Assembly (NCBI RefSeq): GCF_000337355.1
Contig: NZ_AOJH01000006.1
Span: forward strand, 11,468-58,181
From: Halorubrum kocurii JCM 14978
Lineage (GTDB): Archaea > Halobacteriota > Halobacteria > Halobacteriales > Haloferacaceae
DNA length: 46,714 bases
Direction of reading: 5' to 3'
The notes under the pieces were generated by a model. The model did not search any database. It had not been told where the DNA came from and was given only the letters and a program-made list of their open reading frames with translations. Shown piece after piece: positions 4,039 through 20,107 of the stretch. The stretch's first letter is position 1; the number at the start of each line of letters is the position of its first letter. Position numbers and translations under genes: made by a program.

Positions 4039-4764
4039 CTACTCGGTGGTACTGACCGCGTTAACGACCGACGGGTGGGTGCCCAAGTAGGCGCCGAGGA
4101 CGCTCAGGCCTACCATGTACGCCACGGAGACGATCAGCGAGAATGCCAGGATAGCGAGGATGAACGCCGTCAGCCCAGTGGCACTCCCAAGGAGACTCCA
4201 GGTGACGACCGCGAACACGGTGACAACCGGTAGGCTGGCAAACAGGCCGGTCAGGCCGCCGGTCCGAATGGCACTGTCATTCGATCCGCGGTTGAGGTAG
4301 CCCGAGACTCCGCCACCGATGACGGGAGAGAACGGAACGAACGACGCGACGATAGTGACCATCGCCCCGAGGATGGCATTCCCGGTCGTACTCGGCGATA
4401 CAATCCCGGTCGCGTCGAAGCGGCGTCGCGCGCGGGTCTGGACCCCGAAGAACGCGATACCGGCACCGACCAGCATCACGCCGGTTAGTGTCAAGCTGAC
4501 TCCGCTCCCCCAGATGAAGGCGTAGACCGCGTCGATCAGTTCGGGGTCACTCATCTCCGTCGAGGTAATCCGTCCGGAAGCTACCCAAGACGTGACTCGG
4601 CCAACGTCCGCGAACCCGGCGAGGAGATATCCGGCAGCTCCGAAAACGCCTCCTGCGAGCACGAGAAACAGCGAGATGGCCACATCGAGCGTTCTGCTCA
4701 GCGGCTGCGTCTGCTCGTCACGATTCTGTACGACTGTCTCTTCATCAATTATTGCTGAGGACAT
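4039..4764 (-). CDS. DUF5518-like polytopic membrane protein
   Basis: A 241-residue protein with a short polar N-terminus and about six membrane helices. A glycine-rich GGGVSGYLNRG segment near the middle is followed by a TGGLTGLFASLP stretch, which resembles the haloarchaeal DUF5518 family. No catalytic motif is visible and the function is unknown. The ATG at 4764 is preferred over one at 4791, because the extra residues would overlap the operator part of the promoter. Its promoter (4771-4825) carries the GATACGGC element shared with the ABC and CPBP operons, which ties the gene to that putative regulon. Confidence 0.6.
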   Translation of the reverse strand: MSSAIIDEETVVQNRDEQTQPLSRTLDVAISLFLVLAGGVFGAAGYLLAGFADVGRVTSWVASGRITSTEMSDPELIDAVYAFIWGSGVSLTLTGVMLVGAGIAFFGVQTRARRRFDATGIVSPSTTGNAILGAMVTIVASFVPFSPVIGGGVSGYLNRGSNDSAIRTGGLTGLFASLPVVTVFAVVTWSLLGSATGLTAFILAILAFSLIVSVAYMVGLSVLGAYLGTHPSVVNAVSTTE

Positions 4765-4770
4765 ATCAAT

Positions 4771-4825
4771 AGATACGACCCGTATGGGCACATAGCTCCC
4801 GCCGTATCCATCCGTGTTTTATAAG
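4771..4825 (-). promoter_or_regulatory. GATACGGC-type promoter, copy B (minus strand)
   Basis: Read on the minus strand, CTTATAAAA (4825-4817) is followed by 8 bases (CACGGATG) and then GATACGGC (4808-4801). Downstream there is a palindrome ATACG-ACC-CGTAT (4773-4785). The same TATA-8-GATACGGC layout occurs at 6602-6626 and 10036-10060. The GATACGGC block lies between the TATA box and the expected start site. The downstream CGTAT half-site is one base closer than in the other two copies. Confidence 0.7.
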
Positions 4826-4889
4826 TTAATCCCGAGTTCACACCACCTGCGAATGGATGCAGCGAAAAGGTGTTGCCGTCCGACCGCAT

Positions 4890-4905
4890 ATACGGTAGTT
4901 CGTAT
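4890..4905. promoter_or_regulatory. Palindrome ATACG-N6-CGTAT
   Basis: A perfect 5-base inverted repeat, ATACG gtagtt CGTAT, lies in the gap between the DUF5518-like gene and the membrane protein beginning at 5037. The arms match the ATACG/CGTAT palindrome in the promoter at 4771-4825. It may be another binding site for the same regulator. No convincing TATA box stands beside it, so its role is uncertain. Confidence 0.35.
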
Positions 4906-5036
4906 CAATGCCCGATCCGATTCGTCAAACGGCGTCCGCACGCGGAGACGCAAGGCTTGACCTCACAGCCTGTGGGCATACACCTCCGAATTCGACTCCA
5001 AACGGAGTGGGTCCGTGACAGCCGAGGAGGGTATCG

Positions 5037-5678
5037 ATGGTCCGTAGGCGAGCAAGCGGTAGCAGTGTGTGCCCCTCGACTACGGCGTGGTGCGGAATCA
5101 GTGCGGTCGTGGGTGCATTCTGCTGGATCGCCTCGTCGTTGTTAGAGCCCGTCGTCTTCGGTACCAGACCGTACGATGCGACCGTGCTCGACGTCTTCAG
5201 GCTGCTGGGGTGGACGCTGATGATAAGTGGGGTGATCGGAGTAGCAACCACTTTCGGCAACCAGTACGGGCGAAGTGGCCGAATCGGCCTCGGAGTGGTA
5301 GCTTCCGGCATGGTTCTGATCGCAGGACTGCACGTTCGGGCTGTCATCGTACTGGTGTCGGCCGGCTTCCGGGCAGTCCCCACGACCGGAGAGAACACCC
5401 TGGTTCTCGTTGCTGCGTATGCCGGCTCTACCCTCGTCGTCGTCGGCGCCGGATCGCTCGGAATTGCGCTGTGGAGGGTGTCTCCCCGCCCGACGATCGC
5501 GGCTGTGGTTCTCGTAGTCGCGGCCGTGCTACCACTGGTGGCACTCCTCTCGTCCGGCGTTCTCCCGGCGACGCCGCGAAGGCTGTGGCTACAGTCTGGC
5601 ACTCTCCTCGTGCCCTTTGCAGCCGCCTGGGCGGTGCTCGGCGCCGTGGTTTACCGTCGAGCAGGTCGGCAGGACTGA
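5037..5678 (+). CDS. Six-helix membrane protein of unknown function
   Basis: A 213-residue protein, almost wholly hydrophobic, with about six membrane helices and a short basic N-terminus. The layout resembles DUF998-type haloarchaeal membrane proteins, but no diagnostic motif is visible and I do not assign a family. It is read in the same direction as the Bat-type regulator, 89 bases upstream of it. The pair may be co-transcribed, although the regulator also has its own upstream inverted repeat. Confidence 0.6.
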   Translation: MVRRRASGSSVCPSTTAWCGISAVVGAFCWIASSLLEPVVFGTRPYDATVLDVFRLLGWTLMISGVIGVATTFGNQYGRSGRIGLGVVASGMVLIAGLHVRAVIVLVSAGFRAVPTTGENTLVLVAAYAGSTLVVVGAGSLGIALWRVSPRPTIAAVVLVVAAVLPLVALLSSGVLPATPRRLWLQSGTLLVPFAAAWAVLGAVVYRRAGRQD

Positions 5679-5732
5679 GTCGATCGCCCCGTGGCGACCG
5701 CCTCGGCTCTAGTGGCCCGCCACTGCCTCCCG

Positions 5733-5762
5733 AACAGTTATCCAGTTTCGTTTGGAACTGTT
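5733..5762. promoter_or_regulatory. Inverted repeat before Bat-type regulator
   Basis: AACAGTT (5733-5739) and AACTGTT (5756-5762) form a perfect 7-base inverted repeat with a 16-base spacer. It ends 5 bases before the ATG at 5768. It could be an autoregulatory site for the downstream HTH gene or a stem around its start codon. Only the symmetry is observed; the role is inference. Confidence 0.4.
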
Positions 5763-5767
5763 ACAGT

Positions 5768-6448
5768 ATGAGCGTCTTTGGAGAGTTCCGCGTGCCTCCC
5801 AGAGCCCTCGCTCTCTCAGATACGTTCGATGCTGAGCCGGAGACTGTCATCCAGATCGACCGAGTTGTCGCCTCGGAGATGGAGTCGCTGACCCAGTACT
5901 TCATCGTCTCGGGAGTGTCGAACGCGGCCTTCGAAGAAGCCGCCGCTTTGGACGAGTCGATCGATGCCCTCCAGCAGATCCTCGACGCCGAGCAGGGTAC
6001 GATGTATCGTGCGATATGGGGGGATAGCGTCGAAGCCCTGGTGCAGGAGTACACGGACGAGGGGACATCGATTCTGAAAGCGATGGGTACGGCGGACGGG
6101 TGGGTGCTCCGGATCCGGTTCGATGACCATGCGCTGGTCGGCGCGTTCACCTCCCACCTCCGCGATCGAGGGTTCTCGTTCGAGCTCGTCCGTCTTCACG
6201 AGATGTCCTACGCGCAGACGGGCAGCCAGTTCGGGCTCACCCCGAAACAACACGAGGCGCTAGTAACGGCGTGGCAGATGGGTTTCTTCGAGCTCCCGAG
6301 GGAGACGTCGATGGCGGTCATCGCTAAAGAACTCGATATCACCCCGCAGTCACTCTCCGACCGCCTTCGCCGAGCACAGAACACGCTCATCGGCGATGCG
6401 CTACGCGTGGCTGTACGGACGAGCCAGGTGGGCCCCGGGAACGACTGA
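5768..6448 (+). CDS. Bat-type HTH_10 transcription regulator
   Basis: A 226-residue protein. The C-terminal region (about 157-207) is a typical haloarchaeal bacterio-opsin-activator-like HTH (HTH_10): LTPKQHEAL, then ETSMAVIAKELDIT, then PQSLSDRLRRAQ. The N-terminal part (about 25-140) resembles the partner domain of single-input Bat regulators, which senses an unknown signal. The same frame is open far upstream, but that part overlaps the membrane protein gene in another frame, so the ATG at 5768 is the start. It sits directly upstream of the ABC exporter operon and its GATACGGC promoter, so it is the best local candidate to read that element. Confidence 0.85.
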   Translation: MSVFGEFRVPPRALALSDTFDAEPETVIQIDRVVASEMESLTQYFIVSGVSNAAFEEAAALDESIDALQQILDAEQGTMYRAIWGDSVEALVQEYTDEGTSILKAMGTADGWVLRIRFDDHALVGAFTSHLRDRGFSFELVRLHEMSYAQTGSQFGLTPKQHEALVTAWQMGFFELPRETSMAVIAKELDITPQSLSDRLRRAQNTLIGDALRVAVRTSQVGPGND

Positions 6449-6601
6449 GCTAGCCACCGATCGAACGGTCCGGGATTGACCGCCTCCTCCAGAGAACACA
6501 GGAGCGAGGCAACGACTTCGGTCGTGGGTGGGGGTCAACACCGGCGCTCGCGGATTTTTTCTTCGAGTCTCCGTTACCGATCGAAGTGAGTCCGGCCAGA
6601 G

Positions 6602-6655
6602 TTTATAAAAACCGGATAGATACGGCGAGAGCAATCTTGGGTATCTGACCCGTAT
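6602..6655 (+). promoter_or_regulatory. GATACGGC-type promoter, copy A
   Basis: TTTATAAAA (6602-6610), then ACCGGATA, then GATACGGC (6619-6626), and a CCCGTAT half-site at 6649-6655. ATACGG (6620-6625) and CCGTAT (6650-6655) are exact inverted copies. The distance from GATACGG to CCCGTAT is 30 bases, the same as in copy C at 10036-10089. The expected start site is near 6632, which leaves a leader of about 30 bases before the ATG at 6665. Confidence 0.75.
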
Positions 6656-6664
6656 AAGGCGTCA

Positions 6665-7690
6665 ATGAGTCACACCGATTCACGCTCGGACCCCATTTCT
6701 GATGAGATGGCCATCGAGCTCACCGGATTAAGCAAGCAGTACGGCGACGTAACGGCCCTCAACAGTGTTTCTCTCACGGTTCGAAGGGGAGAGATCTTTG
6801 GCTTCCTCGGCCCCAACGGCGCCGGGAAGTCGACGACAATCGATATCCTCCTCGACTTCGTTCGCCCGACGGCAGGGACGGCCACCGTCCTCGGCTACGA
6901 TGCACAGGACGATTCGATGGCGGTTCGGCAGGCTGTCGGAATTCTCCCCGACGGCTATCACCTCTACGATCGCCTGACGGCCCGGCAGCACCTCGAATTC
7001 GCGATTGCCTCGAAAGGCAGCGACGACGATCCGATCGAACTGCTAGAGCGCGTCGGCATCGCCGACGCCGCCGACCGGAAGGCCGGCGGCTTCTCGAAGG
7101 GGATGAAACAGCGACTCGTCCTCGCGATGGCGCTCGCCGGGTCGCCGGAGCTGCTGATTCTCGACGAGCCGTCGACGGGACTCGACCCGAACGGGGCGCG
7201 CGAGATGCGCGACATCATCCGGGCGGAGCGCAATCGCGGGGCGACGGTGTTCTTCTCCTCGCACATCCTCGAACAGGTCGAGGCGGTCTGTGACCGCGTG
7301 GGAATCCTCCGAAACGGGGAACTGGTGGCCGTCGACACGATTGACGCGCTTCGGGACGCCCTGGGGACCGACACTCGACTGGTCCTCACCGTCGAGTCGG
7401 TGACCGACGATATGGTCAACGCGGTCGCTGTCCTTCCGGAGGTGACCGGCGTCCACGCCGACAGTGAGACTCGCCTGACGGTGACGTGCGCGCCGGAGAC
7501 GAAGACGGCCGTCATGCACGCCCTCGAAGCGGCTGGCGGGACCGTCGTCGACTTCGATATCGAGGAGACATCTCTCGAGGAGATGTTCGCGGCCTACACG
7601 ACGGACGACGACACGGCCACGAGCAGCGAAGACGAGGACGACCGCGAACTCGTGGCTCCCTCGGCTGAGAGCGAGGAGGTGCGCGCATGA
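6665..7690 (+). CDS. ABC exporter ATP-binding subunit
   Basis: A 341-residue ABC ATPase with Walker A (GPNGAGKST, 49-57), signature (FSKGMKQ, 143-149), Walker B with catalytic Glu (LLILDEP, 163-169) and a switch His in FFSSHILEQ. It matches the ABC-2/NatA-NosF-type ATPases that energise export or membrane-protein turnover. The C-terminal 100 residues form a small regulatory domain ending in an acidic tail. Its stop overlaps the permease start by 4 bases (ATGA), so the two are translationally coupled. It is a close paralogue of the ATPase at 18578-19573. It is transcribed from the GATACGGC promoter at 6602-6655. Confidence 0.92.
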   Translation: MSHTDSRSDPISDEMAIELTGLSKQYGDVTALNSVSLTVRRGEIFGFLGPNGAGKSTTIDILLDFVRPTAGTATVLGYDAQDDSMAVRQAVGILPDGYHLYDRLTARQHLEFAIASKGSDDDPIELLERVGIADAADRKAGGFSKGMKQRLVLAMALAGSPELLILDEPSTGLDPNGAREMRDIIRAERNRGATVFFSSHILEQVEAVCDRVGILRNGELVAVDTIDALRDALGTDTRLVLTVESVTDDMVNAVAVLPEVTGVHADSETRLTVTCAPETKTAVMHALEAAGGTVVDFDIEETSLEEMFAAYTTDDDTATSSEDEDDRELVAPSAESEEVRA

Positions 7691-8541
7691 GCTGGACCGT
7701 CGTTGCTCGGAAGGATTTCCGAGACGCCCGGCTTTCGAAGGCCCTCTGGGCCATCACCGCCGCGTTCGTCCTCCTCTCGGCAGGGATGGCGGTCCTCTAC
7801 GCCACTGTCCCGGAACTCAGTCAGGATATCGGTGAACTGAGCACCCTCGGCTACCTGACGCTGCTGCTGGCCGTGACGACGCTGTTCGTCTCGGTCGCGG
7901 CGATCGTCATCGGCGCGGGAGCGATCGCCGGCGAGCGCGACCGTGGATCGAGCAAGCTCCTCTTGGGCTTCCCACACAGCCGCGCGGACGTGGTTCTCGG
8001 GAAGCTCATCGGGCGCACCGCAGTGCTCGGGGTGGCCATCCTTGCCGGCCTCGCCGTCACGCTGGGGGTGATCCTTGCCCTGTTGCCGTCGTTCTCGCCG
8101 GTCGACTACGCGATCTTCGCCGCGGTGACGCTCCTATTTGCCCTCGTGTACGTCGGGATCATGATCGCCGTCTCCGCGACGACCGGGAACGGCGGGCGGG
8201 CGATGGCGTTCGGGGTCGGCGTGTTCGTCCTCCTCGAGTTCCTCGGCGATCTCTTGGCCCCAGCGGTCATGTTCGTCGTGAACGGGTTCTCCTTCGGCGG
8301 ACTCGCCGCAGTCCCCGGATGGTATGCCTTCCTCAACGTCGTCACGCCGTCGGCCGCCTATCAGAACGCCCTCGGATGGTTCCTCGGTGACGGTACCGCG
8401 GCAGCCCTGACTCTCGGCGGAATGCTGGACGGTGCGGTCCCGTTCTACCTCACGGGATGGGCTAGCATCGCGGTGCTTGCGCTCTGGCTCGTCGTTCCGC
8501 TGGTGCTCGGCTACCGCAAGTTCGCCGCCGCAGACCTCTGA
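7687..8541 (+). CDS. ABC-2 type permease subunit
   Basis: A 284-residue permease with six predicted membrane helices. A cytoplasmic N-terminus (WTVVARKDFRDARLSKALW) leads into the first helix. The loop AGERDRGSSKLLLGFPHSRADVV between helices 2 and 3 is typical of NosY-like ABC-2 permeases and couples to the ATPase. It ends in GYRKFAAADL, closely similar to the end of the second permease in this window (GYSKFRQADLS). It pairs with the preceding ATPase. The substrate is unknown; peptides, lipids or hydrophobic drugs are typical for the family. Confidence 0.88.
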   Translation: MSWTVVARKDFRDARLSKALWAITAAFVLLSAGMAVLYATVPELSQDIGELSTLGYLTLLLAVTTLFVSVAAIVIGAGAIAGERDRGSSKLLLGFPHSRADVVLGKLIGRTAVLGVAILAGLAVTLGVILALLPSFSPVDYAIFAAVTLLFALVYVGIMIAVSATTGNGGRAMAFGVGVFVLLEFLGDLLAPAVMFVVNGFSFGGLAAVPGWYAFLNVVTPSAAYQNALGWFLGDGTAAALTLGGMLDGAVPFYLTGWASIAVLALWLVVPLVLGYRKFAAADL

Positions 8542-8571
8542 CCACACTGATCCCAGATATCATAATACCTC

Positions 8572-9945
8572 ATGCACACGTTACTCCGGAACCGAAACTT
8601 CACCCGCCTGTTCGCCGGCCGCCTCGTCACCAACGTCGGCGATAGTGTCTACTTCGTCGCCGCGATGTGGCTCGTTTGGGAGCTGACCGGCAGTGAATTT
8701 TTCACCGGGCTGGCGGGCTTTCTCGTGTTAGCTCCCTCTGGCCTGCAGTTTCTCTTTGGCCCGTTAGTCGACCGCTGGGACCTCCGTCGCATCCTCGTCG
8801 GTACCCAACTCGTTCAGGGCCTGCTTGTCCTGTCGGTTCCCATCGCCGCAGCGACTGGCAACCTCTCAGTGTGGCTGGTGCTCGCGGTGATGCCGACCCT
8901 TGCGCTGCTCAATCAACTGGTCTACCCCGCACAAACCGCCGCCATCCCACGACTCGTCGAACAAGAGGAGCTGGTGGCCGCGAACTCGCTGTTCGCACTC
9001 GCCTATCAGGGGGTCGACGCAGTGTTCAATGCCTTGGCCGGCGTGCTCGTCGTGGTCGTCGGTGCTGTGGCGCTGTTCACCCTCGACGCGGTGACCTTCG
9101 TGCTGGCTGCGGCCCTCTTTTCGACGCTCTCGGTGCCGCGGACCGACGCTACGGACTCGAATCTCGATGCCGAGCCCGAGACGCTCCCCGGGACGCCGAC
9201 TCAGGATGTCGAGGCTACTCCCGACGGCGGACAGTCGCCCGACGAGCCGGTCTCGGAGATCGAAGAGACAGTATCGGACGAGCGTCTCGACGCCACCGTG
9301 TCCGACGGAGACGATAGTCAATCGGCATATTTCGCTGACCTCAGGGAGGGCATCATGTACCTCCGGGGTACGTTCCTCATCTCGATGCTGTTCGGGAGCA
9401 TGGTCATCAACTTCGCCCTGGGGGCGACGATCGCAGTACTCCCGTCGTACGGGGCTCTCGTCGGGGGTGTCGAGGGGTACGGATTCCTGATGGCAGCGCT
9501 CGCTGTCGGCATCCTGTTCGGGTCGCTGGCTGCCTCTCTCCTCGCCGGCTTTGCTTTCGGTCGGTTGTCGATCGTGGCGTTCCTGCTTTCAGGCATCGCC
9601 TGGCTCGGTGCCGTCGCAGTCGGCTGGCTGCCCGCCACTGTCGCTCTGTTCGTCCTTGCGTTCGTCCCGGTCGGCGTGACGAATGTCCTGATCGTCTCGG
9701 TAATCCAGGCTGTGGTCCCCGAAACACTACTGGGCCGAGTGACGGCCGTATTGGGAAGCGCCTCGGCCGTATCGACGCCCTTCGGAGCCCTCGCAGGAGG
9801 AGCCACTGCTTCCCTAGTCGGGCCAGTGGCCGTGATAACAGTCGCCGGGATAGGATTTCTGCTACTGGCCGTCTATCTCGCCAGTGTTCCTACGCTTCGA
9901 CAGCTCCCCGCAGTCAGCGACATCGACACGTTGGGAACCAATTAG
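8572..9945 (+). CDS. MFS exporter (MFS_3/EntS-like)
   Basis: A 457-residue major facilitator protein. The N-terminus (LLRNRNFTRLFAGRLVTNVGD) matches the MFS_3 exporter group, which includes macrolide and enterobactin exporters. There are twelve predicted helices. The central cytoplasmic loop (about 190-260) is unusually long and very acidic, which fits haloarchaeal adaptation. It begins 30 bases after the permease gene, so it is probably in the same operon. The likely role is efflux of an amphipathic compound, perhaps the same one handled by the ABC pair; that is inference. Confidence 0.85.
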   Translation: MHTLLRNRNFTRLFAGRLVTNVGDSVYFVAAMWLVWELTGSEFFTGLAGFLVLAPSGLQFLFGPLVDRWDLRRILVGTQLVQGLLVLSVPIAAATGNLSVWLVLAVMPTLALLNQLVYPAQTAAIPRLVEQEELVAANSLFALAYQGVDAVFNALAGVLVVVVGAVALFTLDAVTFVLAAALFSTLSVPRTDATDSNLDAEPETLPGTPTQDVEATPDGGQSPDEPVSEIEETVSDERLDATVSDGDDSQSAYFADLREGIMYLRGTFLISMLFGSMVINFALGATIAVLPSYGALVGGVEGYGFLMAALAVGILFGSLAASLLAGFAFGRLSIVAFLLSGIAWLGAVAVGWLPATVALFVLAFVPVGVTNVLIVSVIQAVVPETLLGRVTAVLGSASAVSTPFGALAGGATASLVGPVAVITVAGIGFLLLAVYLASVPTLRQLPAVSDIDTLGTN

Positions 9946-10035
9946 CAACCGACGCGAACAAAAGGGCTGCCGACTTCCGTATGTGGTACGCTGGCTTAAC
10001 CCAGGGACTGAGGATTCCAACTGGATCGAACGGGG

Positions 10036-10089
10036 TATTTAAAACGCGGATTGATACGGCCTACGTCTTCAGGAGTCATCCTCCCGTAT
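10036..10089 (+). promoter_or_regulatory. GATACGGC-type promoter, copy C
   Basis: TATTTAAAA (10036-10044), then CGCGGATT, then GATACGGC (10053-10060), and CCCGTAT at 10083-10089. The spacing between all parts is identical to copy A. The expected start is near 10066, giving a leader of about 70 bases before the ATG at 10138. Within that leader an ATG at 10088 is followed at once by TAA, a minimal start-stop element whose role is unknown. Confidence 0.75.
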
Positions 10090-10137: not shown

Positions 10138-10911
10138 ATGTCAACCTCAACGTACAATCAACCGGATGTACAGCCCCGAACTGCCGATAGCCCGCGCCGG
10201 GCGATTCTCGTCGCTCTCGGGCTACTGTTTGCCGCGGCAATTCCCCCGTTAGCCATCGTTGAGGGCTTCAAGCTCGTACAGGCGCAGTTCGGATACGGTG
10301 GCGATCTCGCGGTCACGTTTATCGGCGGGGGTCTCCTCGCGACTCTAGCGATCGGCCTGCTTGGCGTCGCGTACCACCGCGTTCGACCGGTTACCGTCCA
10401 CGTGCCGCGATGGCTCCCGACGCTGCGCGAGAGCGGCTGGATCGTCGCGGGTGTCGTCATCATGTTTATCACTGCAATCCTGATCCAGATCGGGATGCAG
10501 TTGCTCAATGCGACACCGCCAACGAACTTCAGCGCCGCTGCGGCCGCCGAACGTCCGGTTCTGGTGTACGGCCTGGCGATCGTTGGCGCACTGTTCATCA
10601 TCGGCCCCATCGAGGAGTACTTCTACCGAGGTATCGTCCAGGGCCGCCTCCGTGAACAGATGGGGCCTGTGCCGGCCATCGCCATCGTTTCCGTCGGCTT
10701 CGCGCTGGGACACGTTCCGAGCTACTGGGTCGGCGGATCGGATCTCCTCTCGCTGGGCGTGTTCTTCGCCCTCTTGAGTATCGGCGTTGGGTCTGTCATC
10801 TTCGGTGTAATCTACGAGCGCACGCAAAATCTCGTCGTGGTCATCGTGATCCACAGCCTGGTCAACGCGATCAGTTTCAGCTTGGCACTAGTCGCTGCTC
10901 TCGGAGTGTGA
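10138..10911 (+). CDS. CPBP intramembrane metalloprotease 1
   Basis: A 257-residue polytopic protein of the CPBP (Abi/CAAX protease and bacteriocin-processing) family. Catalytic motifs are EEYFYRG (Glu159-Glu160, Arg164), GHVPSYW (His192) and a last HSLVNA motif near 243. CPBP enzymes are glutamate-type intramembrane proteases. Known roles include prenyl-protein trimming, bacteriocin maturation or immunity, and anti-sigma factor cleavage. I chose the ATG at 10138; the frame is open upstream but would start inside the promoter. It is the first gene of an operon with a second CPBP gene, seven bases downstream. Confidence 0.85.
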   Translation: MSTSTYNQPDVQPRTADSPRRAILVALGLLFAAAIPPLAIVEGFKLVQAQFGYGGDLAVTFIGGGLLATLAIGLLGVAYHRVRPVTVHVPRWLPTLRESGWIVAGVVIMFITAILIQIGMQLLNATPPTNFSAAAAAERPVLVYGLAIVGALFIIGPIEEYFYRGIVQGRLREQMGPVPAIAIVSVGFALGHVPSYWVGGSDLLSLGVFFALLSIGVGSVIFGVIYERTQNLVVVIVIHSLVNAISFSLALVAALGV

Positions 10912-10918
10912 TCAGGGG

Positions 10919-11764
10919 ATGGGCCTGAGGTATTTCCACTCGCGCCCGGTGCAGTTGTACGTCGGTATTCTCGCGGCGATGCTGGCGTTCGGCGTACTCG
11001 CCAGACCCCTCGTCGAGACGTTCGCACCCGGACTCTCCGTCATCGGTATCCGTGTCGTCGTCAACTGGCTGTTCGTCGCACTCGTCGTCGGCCTGGTCGC
11101 CTGGCTGGGCTGGTGGCGGAAGGTCCGGCTGACTGCACCGATAGCGTCGGGCGGCCGTCGGTATCTCCTCGTGTTGGCCGCCCTGCTGCTCGTCCCGCTG
11201 GGAGTAACCCTCGCGCTCGCGCCGGCGCCCTTCGCGGTCCCGGAGTTTACGATCCTCGATGGACAGCCCCTCTCCACGGCCGGCGTCGTTGTGCTCGTCG
11301 TCGTCGGGTTCGCCCTCGGGGCGGCCGTCTCGGAGGAACTCCTGTACCGGGGTGTCGTCCTCCGGAGCTTCGAGTCGCGGGGTCGGATTCCCGCGGCGCT
11401 CGCGGCCAGCTTCCTCTTCGGCGCCTCTCACCTCTCGCTGCTCGCGGTTGGCGTGCCCCTGAGTGAAGTGCTGCTCGTCGGCGTGTTGAGCGCCGTCTCT
11501 GGTATCGGGCTCGCGGCGATCGCGTTCAGAATGGGGACGCTGTGGCCGCTGGTCGGATGGCACTTCCTTCAGAACTCCTTTCCGGCGTTCCTTACCGCCG
11601 AAGCGATGGCGGTGTTCGTTCCCGTCAACATCGCCGTCGTCCTCGGGGTCGCCATTCTCGGGACGTGGCTCCTCTGGACTGATCGCAACATCGGAGTCGC
11701 TGACGACGAAGAGATGCTGACCGATGCAACCCCTCAGCCCACTGGGAGCAGTATGAGACCGTGA
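10919..11764 (+). CDS. CPBP intramembrane metalloprotease 2
   Basis: A 281-residue CPBP family protease. Motifs: SEELLYRG (Glu139-Glu140, Arg144), FGASHLS (His171) and GWHFLQNS (about 214-221). About eight membrane helices are present. It lies 7 bases after CPBP 1, and its stop overlaps the GTG of the next lipoprotein gene by 4 bases, so three genes form a tight operon. The two proteases are only distantly similar outside the motifs, so this is an old duplication or a recruited pair rather than a recent copy. The substrate is unknown. Confidence 0.85.
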   Translation: MGLRYFHSRPVQLYVGILAAMLAFGVLARPLVETFAPGLSVIGIRVVVNWLFVALVVGLVAWLGWWRKVRLTAPIASGGRRYLLVLAALLLVPLGVTLALAPAPFAVPEFTILDGQPLSTAGVVVLVVVGFALGAAVSEELLYRGVVLRSFESRGRIPAALAASFLFGASHLSLLAVGVPLSEVLLVGVLSAVSGIGLAAIAFRMGTLWPLVGWHFLQNSFPAFLTAEAMAVFVPVNIAVVLGVAILGTWLLWTDRNIGVADDEEMLTDATPQPTGSSMRP

Positions 11765-12225
11765 ATCGCCGCGACTTCCTCGGCGCCGCGGCTGGAACCA
11801 CGGTCGCAGGGACCCTCGCGGCGCTGGCTGGCTGCGCCGGCTCAGTGGACGGCATCGGCGAACTCATGGTAAGCGTCACCAACGAGGACACGATCACGCA
11901 CACAATCGCAGTGACCGTCACGAACCAGGCCGGTGACGTCGTCGAATCGCTCACCGGCGAGGATATCGAACCGGGTATCGGGCGGACGTTCACCAGTGCA
12001 GGGTATCCCGACGACACCTACCAGGTCGCGGTTGAAGACGACAGGGAGGACCGTCCCACCTGGAAGCAGGTCACGCGGTGGTCGAACTTGGCGGAGTGTC
12101 CCTCGTTAGTGTTCGAACTCCGGCTGACCAATCGGGACGGCGTTCGGAACGTCATCCCGTCGAAGCGGTGCGGGTCGTCACTCCCGCTGGAGTGGACGCA
12201 GGGAGACGTCACCGAACTCGCTTAG
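11761..12225 (+). CDS. Tat-exported lipoprotein, unknown function
   Basis: A 154-residue protein with a twin-arginine signal (NRRDFLGAA) and an archaeal lipobox LAGC (Cys25). It should be exported folded and lipid-anchored outside the membrane. The mature part looks like one small beta-sandwich (VTNEDTITHTIAVTVTN), a form common in haloarchaeal lipoproteins. It is coupled to CPBP 2 through a GTGA overlap; the GTG start is chosen for this coupling and for the signal peptide. Its last 48 bases overlap the convergent DUF4097 gene. Its place in a protease operon suggests a partner or substrate role, which is inference. Confidence 0.75.
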   Translation: MNRRDFLGAAAGTTVAGTLAALAGCAGSVDGIGELMVSVTNEDTITHTIAVTVTNQAGDVVESLTGEDIEPGIGRTFTSAGYPDDTYQVAVEDDREDRPTWKQVTRWSNLAECPSLVFELRLTNRDGVRNVIPSKRCGSSLPLEWTQGDVTELA

Positions 12226-13017
12226 GACGTGGACCTCTGAGCCGCCGGCGTTCAGTTGTCCTGCGAGTCGGTCGCTGCTCGACTCCACGTTTGTGAGCGC
12301 GAGAGTCGAGTTGATGTCCGAGACCGATTCGGCGAGGACGTCGACATCGAGGTCATCGGCGATTCCGACAGCGACATCGCCAAGATCCGTCCTGATTTCG
12401 ATGTCGTCGCGCACGTCCCACACTTCGACTTTCACTGCTCCGAGATCAGATCGCGCGCGATCCAACCCCGTCGAACCAGAGGAGAGTACCTCTCCCAGGT
12501 TCGATCGGAGGTCGGGATAGCCGTTGACGCCGTTTGCAGTGACGTTCCCAAGGTTAGTTCGGACCCTGGTGTCGCCGCGCGTGTTCAGAAGCGTCACGTC
12601 CCCCAACTCCGACGTGACTGAGTCGACGGCCGGTCCCGCATCTCCTTCGGGGACGCTCACTGTCACGTCCGTGCTTGGCGACGAGCGTGTGAACCACTGT
12701 GCATCGTCGTCGATACGTGTCTCGACGGTCAGAACCCCGTCGTCCAGCGAAACTGTGGCCTCGATATCATCCAGTCCGGACTGACCCTCCGTGGACCGCT
12801 TGACCACACGAGCGCGAACATTGTCGACGTCGGTGGCTGTGACCAGAACGTCACCGATGTCGTTAGTAACTCTCACCGTCTCGACGTCCGCTGCCGGGAA
12901 CGACTCCTCCGTTGTCTGGATAATTCGGCTGCGACCGAATGGCGTGCCACCGAGACACCCCGAGAACGCACTGACCGTGACGAGACCACTTGCACCGAGA
13001 AACTGCCGACGGTTCAT
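12178..13017 (-). CDS. DUF4097 toast-rack lipoprotein
   Basis: A 279-residue protein with a Tat signal (NRRQFLGAS) and lipobox FSGC (Cys21). The mature part shows repeated beta rungs with a recurring pattern: ELGDVTLLN, NLGNVTAN, NLGEVLSS, DLGAVKVE, DLGDVAVG, EFGDVSLR. This is the DUF4097 'putative adhesin' or toast-rack fold seen beside LiaF/PspC envelope-stress proteins in bacteria. The ATG at 13017 is chosen because it starts the signal peptide. Its 3' end overlaps the convergent lipoprotein gene by 48 bases. It should be anchored on the outer face of the membrane and may sense or shield envelope damage. Confidence 0.8.
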   Translation of the reverse strand: MNRRQFLGASGLVTVSAFSGCLGGTPFGRSRIIQTTEESFPAADVETVRVTNDIGDVLVTATDVDNVRARVVKRSTEGQSGLDDIEATVSLDDGVLTVETRIDDDAQWFTRSSPSTDVTVSVPEGDAGPAVDSVTSELGDVTLLNTRGDTRVRTNLGNVTANGVNGYPDLRSNLGEVLSSGSTGLDRARSDLGAVKVEVWDVRDDIEIRTDLGDVAVGIADDLDVDVLAESVSDINSTLALTNVESSSDRLAGQLNAGGSEVHVLSEFGDVSLRPLQRE

Positions 13018-13181
13018 AAGAGAGAACACGCGCCTAATAGTTAAATAATTAACAGTAGTTGCCGCGCTATCACAGAACAGGGTCTAGCTGGCCAACCGCG
13101 CAGGAGGCGACCACTTTTAAGGAACGCCTCAGACACAAGATCTATATCGTATCGGCCTCCCAAGTAGGCAAGGTTAATTCG

Positions 13182-17741: not shown

Positions 17742-18581
17742 TTAGCTCAGATCGGCTTGGCGGAACTTGGAATACCCGACGAGGAGCGGGACGACAGCCC
17801 ACGCAAACAGTATTCCGAGAAACACCGCCGGATCGAGATAACTGGGTGCCGATCCCCCGATGCGTGCTTCCACGGCAGTTCCGCTCCCGAGCAACAACCG
17901 CTGGACGAGCGCGTTGTACGCGCCGGTTGGACTGACTCCCTGTATGAGTAGTAACCACGCGGGCACAACTCCACCGGGCATCTCACCGGTGACCAGTAGA
18001 TGAACCACAGTGGGAGCCAGATCCCAGAGCAGCGTTAGCCCGAGGTATGCAGTAATAGCCAGAGTCATGGCCCGCGATCGTGTCGCCGTAACCGCCGAGA
18101 TTCCGATGCCGATGCCGACGAACGAAACGCCGAGAAGGACAGTCAGTAGTGTGGTTCCAACGAACGCTCCCACGGGAAGGCCACCGTAGAGGACAGCCGT
18201 GACGACACCCGATACCACAAACCCCAGTGCGAGTCCGATAGCGACTACACCACTCCGGCCGAGGAACTTCCCGAAGAGCACTTCGCCCCGCGACGGCGGG
18301 AGCCCGAGGATCACCTTCAGACTCCCTGACTCCAGTTCACCGGCAATCGCGAGATAGGCGGCGATCAGCGCCATGATCGGAACGAGGAGTCCCGCGAACT
18401 GCGACGCACCGCCGATCGCCATCTCGGCACCGCCTTCGACGTCGGGGACGAGGAGTGAGATACTTGCAGACAGCGACGTCATCACCGCGATGATTACGAC
18501 GATTCCCCAGATCATTCGCGATCGGAGGGCGTCGGCGAACTCCTTGCGAGCGATCGTCAGCCAGAGCGGAGCACGCGTCAT
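17742..18581 (-). CDS. ABC-2 type permease subunit (second copy)
   Basis: A 279-residue six-helix permease closely similar in layout to the one at 7687-8541: N-terminal WLTIARKEFADALRSRMIW, loop AGELESGSLKVILGLPPSRGEV, and terminal GYSKFRQADLS. Its start overlaps the stop of its ATPase by 4 bases. The substrate is unknown. The two permeases look like paralogues from one duplication, now on opposite strands at the two ends of the protease-rich block. Confidence 0.88.
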   Translation of the reverse strand: MTRAPLWLTIARKEFADALRSRMIWGIVVIIAVMTSLSASISLLVPDVEGGAEMAIGGASQFAGLLVPIMALIAAYLAIAGELESGSLKVILGLPPSRGEVLFGKFLGRSGVVAIGLALGFVVSGVVTAVLYGGLPVGAFVGTTLLTVLLGVSFVGIGIGISAVTATRSRAMTLAITAYLGLTLLWDLAPTVVHLLVTGEMPGGVVPAWLLLIQGVSPTGAYNALVQRLLLGSGTAVEARIGGSAPSYLDPAVFLGILFAWAVVPLLVGYSKFRQADLS

Positions 18582-19573
18582 CGGTCCGCCTCCGCGTCAT
18601 TACCTCGCGGCGGTACATCACCCGTGTAGGCGCTGAACAGGTCTTCCAACGACGACTCTTCGATCGTCACGTCGAGAATTGAAGCGCCATCATCTCGTAT
18701 GCGATCGATCACGTCGACTTTGGCGGGAGCATCGTCGACGCTAACTCGGATTATCCGCCCATCAACTACGACATCTGAGACACCGGCTATCTCCACGAGG
18801 GTGAGCGAGTCCGGGACAGCGTCGACTGTGAGCGTTATCGTCGACCCGGTTCCGAGTGCGTCGCGAAGCCCGTCGATCGAATCGATAGCGACGAGTCGGC
18901 CACGATTGAGTATCGCGACGCGATCACAGACGGCTTCGACCTGACTGAGAATATGGCTGGAGAAGAAGACGGTCTTCCCTCGGTTCGCGTGATCGCGAGC
19001 GATCTCACGGACGAGGCGAACGCCGTTGGGATCGAGTCCCGATGACGGCTCGTCGAGGATCAACAGTTGCGGATCGCCGACGAGGGCGATCGCGAGGGCT
19101 AATCGCTGCATCATTCCTTTCGAATAGCCACCGACGACGCGATCAGCAGCTGCAGCATCGAGCCCGACTCGATCGAGGAGGTCGTCAACAGCGTCATCAG
19201 ATCGCTTCAACGCGATCGCGTACTCCAGATGTTTGCGGCCGGTTAGGCGCTCGTAAAGCCCGTACCCGTCCGGAAGAATACCGACCCGCTCGTGGATTTC
19301 CCGCGTCTCAGTCTGCGCGTCGAATCCGAGGACAGTTGCACTCCCGGCAGACGGGCGGACGTAGTCCATAATCACATCGATGGTCGTGGACTTCCCGGCG
19401 CCATTCGGTCCGAGAAAACCGAATATCTCGCCCTCGTAGACAGTCAGATCGAGGTCGTCGACGGCGAGGACGTCCTTCCCATAGCGTTTTGTCAGTCCCG
19501 TCGTTCGGATGGCAACTGGCTCGTCATCGGTTGGGGTTCCCCAATCTGACGAAGCACGAGAACGGGTGTCCAT
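18578..19573 (-). CDS. ABC exporter ATP-binding subunit (second copy)
   Basis: A 331-residue ABC ATPase with Walker A (GPNGAGKST, 55-63), signature YSKGMMQR, Walker B LLILDEPS and FFSSHILSQ switch. It is a strong paralogue of the ATPase at 6665: both contain GEIFGFLGPNGAGKSTTID, ATVLG-DAQ, VGILPDGY and EAVCDRV. The ATG at 19573 (MDTRSR) is chosen; the frame stays open to 19702, but the extra N-terminus has no family match. Its upstream DNA lacks a clear GATACGGC element, so the two exporters seem to be under different control. Confidence 0.9.
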   Translation of the reverse strand: MDTRSRASSDWGTPTDDEPVAIRTTGLTKRYGKDVLAVDDLDLTVYEGEIFGFLGPNGAGKSTTIDVIMDYVRPSAGSATVLGFDAQTETREIHERVGILPDGYGLYERLTGRKHLEYAIALKRSDDAVDDLLDRVGLDAAAADRVVGGYSKGMMQRLALAIALVGDPQLLILDEPSSGLDPNGVRLVREIARDHANRGKTVFFSSHILSQVEAVCDRVAILNRGRLVAIDSIDGLRDALGTGSTITLTVDAVPDSLTLVEIAGVSDVVVDGRIIRVSVDDAPAKVDVIDRIRDDGASILDVTIEESSLEDLFSAYTGDVPPRGNDAEADR

Positions 19574-20107
19574 ATTGCCCGTACGTCTACCTCCGTGAAA
19601 AGGCCGTGTGCGGTATCCCGACGAGGCTCCGGACTGCTCGTAGCGGCACCACACAGTTACTGTTGATGAGAGTGAAGTTACAAGAGTAGGCCAGTCATTC
19701 ATGCAGGCGGACCGCTGAAAGCGGGTGCGGCCAATCGGTTACTAGAACATCGATCACGGGTTCCGTCCTGGCGGAGCAACAGTCAAATCGAAAGGCCAGC
19801 TTCGAGGACGACTCCCTCGAGAGCGCTGACTACAGGGGCTGTTGACGGCTGCCGACACGGTCGCTATCGCCGATCAGATAGCCGCCGAAGGCGATCATCC
19901 AGATCATCACGGGGTAGATGATATTTGCCCGGGTGTAGCGTGTCGCGTTCGGAGAGTCAAAACTGCGCTCTTCGCACGATGAGAACAGGTGGGGGTCGAT
20001 GGCTAGACCATTTGTCCTAATATCAGTAAAATAATCGTCGATATACTCGATAATATACGCTCATTCTACTCTTTAATAGTGTGTGGTCGTAGTAACTTTT
20101 GAAAACA
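19574..20107. other. Intergenic gap before nadE
   Basis: About 530 bases between divergent genes. It holds the promoter of the second ABC operon on one side and a TTTAATA box (20072-20078) about 30 bases before the nadE ATG on the other. A start-less coding fragment lies at 19830-20060 on the minus strand (separate entry). Nothing else was recognised. Confidence 0.5.
19830..20060 (-). pseudogene. Start-less fragment of a membrane-protein gene
   Basis: On the minus strand an open frame of 76 codons runs from a TGA (20063-20061) to a TAG at 19832-19830 with no ATG, GTG or TTG until deep inside. The translation looks like real protein: EYIDDYFTDIR, then DPHLFSSCEERSFDSPNATR, then a hydrophobic stretch NIIYPVMIWMIAFGGYLIG, then a polar tail. 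It reads like the C-terminus of a membrane protein whose front was lost. The family was not recognised. It could also be chance, since the region is short. Confidence 0.35.

Follow-up and report, generated by a model that had tools for sequence, protein, structure and literature searches.

The best-known members of the HTH_10 family are activators of anaerobic and phototrophic genes, and in the bop promoter the site precedes the TATA box. A haloarchaeal genome may encode many HTH_10 proteins; to our knowledge, the binding sites of very few have been identified. Archaeal repressors of the Lrp, TrmB, MDR1 and Phr types use operators that overlap the start region and block polymerase recruitment. 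An upstream activator sequence has been mentioned for bop (PMC2253796), and the denitrification motif of Haloferax mediterranei, CGAAYATDKTYG, is a compact, semi-palindromic 12-mer that stands 66-79 nt (nir, nor, nos) or 319 nt (nar) before the start codon (PMC10062603).

The locus studied here is part of contig C6 in a 3.62-Mb draft Halorubrum genome, within a window of 46,714 nucleotides (the whole stretch of DNA that was analyzed), where three promoters share a composite element that is a candidate operator of a Bat-type protein. The proposed regulator has a BAT and an HTH_10 domain (PF15915, PF04967) and, as is reported of NarO and DmsR, lacks a PAS/GAF sensor domain; whereas Bat, DmsR and NarO target the bop, dms and nar genes, mainly by activation, the putative targets here are membrane exporters and proteases. 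Unlike the bop site, the element lies downstream of the TATA box, and its sequence is unrelated. As with CGAAYATDKTYG, a short motif recurs in several promoters of one functional group, but the Haloferax mediterranei motif is not tied to a TATA box, whereas here the TATA spacing is fixed, and the CGAAYATDKTYG core is not present in the element consensus across sites, CGGAYNGRTACGG-N23/24-YCGTAT. The position between TATA box and leader recalls the Lrp-, TrmB-, MDR1- and Phr-type operators, although the protein family and the sequence are different and the inverted halves lie about three helical turns apart, flanking the predicted start. No matching operator was found in the literature searched, in which subscription journals were thinly covered. 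Judged by sequence comparison, a regulator of a familiar family would here control a local regulon through a new operator, and the evidence points to a small circuit, not previously described, that governs membrane exporters and membrane proteases.

On direct reading of the three window copies, the element takes the form TATA-N2-CGGATNGATACGGC, followed 23-24 bp on by the inverted half-site YCGTAT; all three have the TATA box, two variable bases, CGGAT-N-GATACGGC and YCGTAT, and the half-site centers are about 31 bp apart, the equivalent of three helical turns. The copies are as follows.

4824-4772, minus: copy 1, DUF5518 gene promoter; TATA box 4824-4817, left half CGGATGGATACGGC 4814-4801, right half TCGTATC 4778-4772, 23-bp gap
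6602-6655, plus: copy 2, ABC-2 exporter operon promoter; TATA box 6602-6609, left half CGGATAGATACGGC 6613-6626, right half CCGTAT 6650-6655, 24-bp gap
10036-10089, plus: copy 3, CPBP operon promoter; TATA box 10036-10043, left half CGGATTGATACGGC 10047-10060, right half CCGTAT 10084-10089, 24-bp gap

The first-pass annotation had proposed a shared element at these promoters, and its coordinates, spacer pattern and spacing difference all proved correct. The copy that it described as one base shorter is that of the DUF5518 gene, where GATACGG and YCGTAT are separated by 23 bp; the other two copies, ABC and CPBP, have 24 bp. Assigned start codons lie downstream of every copy, and the putative regulator and target genes are the following.

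5768..6448, plus: Bat-type regulator, 226 aa, BAT domain and HTH_10, predicted leaderless
4039..4764, minus: target 1, DUF5518 membrane protein, 241 aa (PF17647, E 7e-15)
6665..7690, plus: target operon 2, ABC transporter ATPase (PF00005)
7687..8541, plus: ABC-2 family permease (PF12679, E 6e-47)
8572..9945, plus: MFS transporter (PF07690), 30 bp after the permease
10138..10911, plus: target operon 3, CPBP/Rce1-like membrane protease 1 (PF02517, E 2e-18)
10919..11764, plus: CPBP/Rce1-like membrane protease 2 (PF02517, E 1e-13)
11761..12225, plus: small protein with a twin-arginine-type signal (PF10518, below cut-off)

By two domain tests, the protein encoded at 5768-6448 is a predicted member of the Bat/HTH_10 family: it has a C-terminal HTH_10 domain (PF04967, E 1e-16, residues 157-208) and a BAT (GAF- and HTH_10-associated) domain (PF15915, E 2e-13). 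Pfam found in it no PAS/GAF sensor domain of the kind that Bat itself has, and no significant relative was found in the PDB. Since NarO and DmsR are likewise described without a PAS/GAF sensor domain (PMC11218638), such a domain is not required for family membership. The Bat gene ends about 154 bp upstream of the TATA box of the ABC operon. No copy of the element was found in the promoter of the Bat gene itself, and autoregulation through the element was dropped for this reason.

The ABC ATPase has, in addition, a partial DrrA-type C-terminal match below the Pfam cut-off, and the MFS transporter gene is probably in one operon with the ABC-2 permease. The small-protein gene, which overlaps the 3' end of CPBP 2 and has an ortholog after the CPBP genes in genomes G077 and G319, is probably part of the CPBP operon. 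Calling these units a putative regulon is well supported by comparative genomics; the "envelope" label is plausible from gene content, and a role in defense against membrane or antimicrobial-compound stress is likely, given the CPBP proteases, the ABC-2 exporter and DUF4097. The DUF4097 gene of H. xinjiangense carries the element (L070 8862-8820, minus; CGGATGGGTACGG-N23-TCGTAT), whereas that of the window (12178-13029, minus) does not, a difference that we read as a putative gain or loss of a regulon member. The window also holds a second ABC-2 exporter (ATPase and permease, 17742-19702, minus) without the element; its ATPase is 55-59% identical to the element-controlled ATPase of related loci, and this exporter is predicted to be a paralog that is unregulated or differently regulated. 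At 131-1183 lies an LD-carboxypeptidase (peptidase S66) gene. MccF-type S66 members confer self-immunity against peptide antibiotics, and the gene would fit a compound-defense neighborhood if an MccF-type role holds.

The element, its conservation, its fixed geometry and its exclusive co-occurrence with the Bat gene are all shown by the analysis. With up to three mismatches allowed, TATA box plus element gave three matches in the window, whereas 100 dinucleotide shuffles gave 0.00, and a comparable pattern at the same tolerance found exclusively the same three promoters in the whole 3.62-Mb genome (reversed control, 0). The GATACGGC octamer is unremarkable by itself (7 in the window, 2.3 expected) and was dropped as a stand-alone motif because it is not significant there; it is therefore the composite that is significant. 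The frequency of YCGTAT per window position is 0.0005, and still all three copies have it at the 23- or 24-bp spacing. Allowing two mismatches to CGGATNGATACGGC yielded 165 matches in the genome, mostly common CGATCGA background, with no further promoter copies among them, and an in-register TATA box is missing from all seven sites with one mismatch. Exact core matches outside the cluster in other genomes (L031-L034, L036-L038) were set aside, having no TATA box in register. The first-pass annotation had held that frequent occurrence elsewhere would speak against its proposal; searches of the genome and of its relatives found the element to be infrequent, with three copies as the genome total.

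The same annotation had asked whether the element is present in orthologous promoters, and there it was found, in other species and genera. H. xinjiangense (G028, L070) has it at the ABC, CPBP1, DUF5518 and DUF4097 promoters, G077 before CPBP1 and another CPBP gene (CPBPx), G104 before CPBPx and ABC, G319 before ABC and CPBP1, and G462 before DUF5518. Copy 1 is thus kept in H. xinjiangense and G462 (L133), and copy 2 in G028, G104 and G319; copy 3 is kept entire in G077 and as the left half alone in G028 and G319. The DUF5518 gene of G462 (L133 16447-17168) was matched in two frames and is apparently frameshifted, with its promoter element intact. The TATA box is in identical register in all 14 sites compared, and YCGTAT follows 23 or 24 bp downstream in 11 of the 14; the right half has degenerated or disappeared at the other three (CPBP1 of G028, CPBP1 of G319 and ABC of G319). 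The CPBP1 promoters of G028 (L070 11425, plus) and G319 (L099 9473, plus) have a left half with GGTACGG and show CACATAG where the right half is expected, so the right half may be dispensable, or these two promoters may be regulated differently. The sequence GAGNRCAATCTTG (window 6627-6640), at the expected transcription start, is conserved in several ABC and CPBPx promoters (window, G028, G077, G104) and not in CPBP1 or DUF5518 promoters, and is a possible initiator or promoter-subclass signature.

Between orthologous promoters, the TATA box plus left half is 68-96% identical, whereas over the roughly 90 bp that precede the TATA box identity is 20-32%, with a single exception among the pairs, CPBP1 of G028 against G319 (62%). 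Because the upstream DNA is mostly at chance identity, the conserved regulatory information lies at and downstream of the TATA box; the ortholog comparison revealed no conserved activator site upstream of it.

Searching 170 genomes of the family for TATA box plus left half returned 13 matches, all in six genomes and near the Bat gene (control, 0), and when the Bat-type protein was searched for in these 170 genomes, exactly the same six came up at E<=1e-60, with 65-100% identity. Were the genomes independent, the coincidence of the two sets would have a probability of 1/C(170,6), or about 3e-11; they are not fully so, since the island passes on by descent or transfer as one block, and the co-occurrence does not amount to six independent events. 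The Bat gene is the sole gene common to all six element loci, whose gene sets vary, and whichever of ABC, CPBP1, CPBPx and DUF5518 is present has the element. In G023, G351, G306 and a MAG (L069, of which the 9-kb contig alone was checked), ABC orthologs in genomes or contigs without this Bat gene are also without the element. The association goes further than block inheritance in two respects: Bat alone is common to the variable loci, and the Bat-less ABC orthologs lack the element. Near the genes of distant Bat paralogs (39-47% identity), the element is absent. Across 392 genomes of the order, the strict composite pattern gave eight matches in three genomes at element loci (reversed control, 0) and four stray matches with no promoter context, two of them antisense within one MCM helicase gene and two without a TATA box. 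The island occurs in just 6 of the 170 family genomes, with shuffled gene content. Its contigs in G319 (C3, L099), G077 (C4, L082) and G104 (C3, L083) are 180-490 kb long in genomes of 4-7 contigs, and a ParA-like gene is close to one of these loci; the island is possibly carried on secondary replicons.

In our judgment, the element is probably the bipartite operator of the Bat-type protein 5768-6448, and it most likely serves to repress the exporter, CPBP and DUF5518 units. In haloarchaea, transcription is expected to start roughly 26 bp from the TATA center. On that basis, the left part (CGGAYNGRTACGG) would fill the DNA between the TATA box and the predicted start, at about -18 to -5, and the right part, the inverted YCGTAT, would lie in the leader at about +20 to +26. 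The bound Bat-type protein would thus occupy DNA needed by TFB, RNA polymerase and the early transcript, and repression of the three transcription units would be lifted by some signal. We infer the binding, the start position, the sign, the signal and the role of the genes. Since 72% of Haloferax transcripts are leaderless (PMC4983044), the predicted leaders of the target operons fit an operator that reaches past the start.

The same protein and site could also serve activation, with the Bat-type protein bound beside the TATA box to recruit or stabilize TFB or RNA polymerase and the element acting as a regulator-dependent part of the core promoter. We keep this reading open because of the fixed TATA spacing, identical in 14 of 14 copies although a repressor site would not require such constancy, and because of the activator reputation of the family, Bat, NarO and DmsR being reported as activators (PMC11218638). 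Nevertheless, we consider it unlikely: the site falls between the TATA box and the predicted start and its other half within the leader, positions from which archaeal regulators as a rule act by blocking; the TATA boxes are near consensus, so the promoters may do without help; and no conserved site upstream of the TATA box was seen. Repression is likelier than activation because the bound protein would sit where TFB and polymerase must go.

That a different protein (GbsR-like, a special TFB or a regulator encoded elsewhere) recognizes the element, with Bat co-occurring because the island travels as a unit, appears improbable. Two further HTH genes do lie near, at 1847-2365 (GbsR-like) and 2371-2883, but both are missing from the other five loci, and Bat alone is common to the six. 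The first-pass annotation had named both the Bat-type and the GbsR-like protein as candidates; the latter fell away when its gene found no match in the other five element loci, while the confinement of the element to the six genomes with a Bat ortholog favors the Bat-type protein as the putative regulator. The patchy, rearranged island, in which several targets are paralogous CPBP genes, would also suit a promoter cassette that was duplicated with rearranging genes and kept by recent ancestry, with no dedicated regulator; we find this very hard to reconcile with TATA boxes and left halves at 68-96% identity next to upstream DNA at or near chance, and with Bat-less orthologs that lack the element. 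Least credible of all is an RNA element, with the inverted halves base-pairing within the leader or playing a part in translation. The right half does lie within the predicted leader, and leadered transcripts are a minority in Haloferax (72% leaderless; PMC4983044), but the left half is upstream of the predicted start, folding is ordinary (z -0.2 to -1.8), and the right half stands at very different distances from the start codon.

Returning to repression by the Bat-type protein, the wider proposal is that a Bat-family protein represses at the start site, by way of a two-part operator that spans the transcription start, and controls a mobile membrane-defense island (exporter, CPBP, DUF5518/DUF4097). 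We offer this tentatively, our judgment being nearly balanced and tilted slightly toward doubt. If true, start-site repression and membrane defense would be a mode and a function not known from the HTH_10 family. Sequence alone here yields a matched putative regulator-operator pair, a precise consensus and clear negative controls, so that binding and the sign of regulation are directly testable, and the circuit would give a handle on when archaeal CPBP proteases and ABC-2 exporters switch on.
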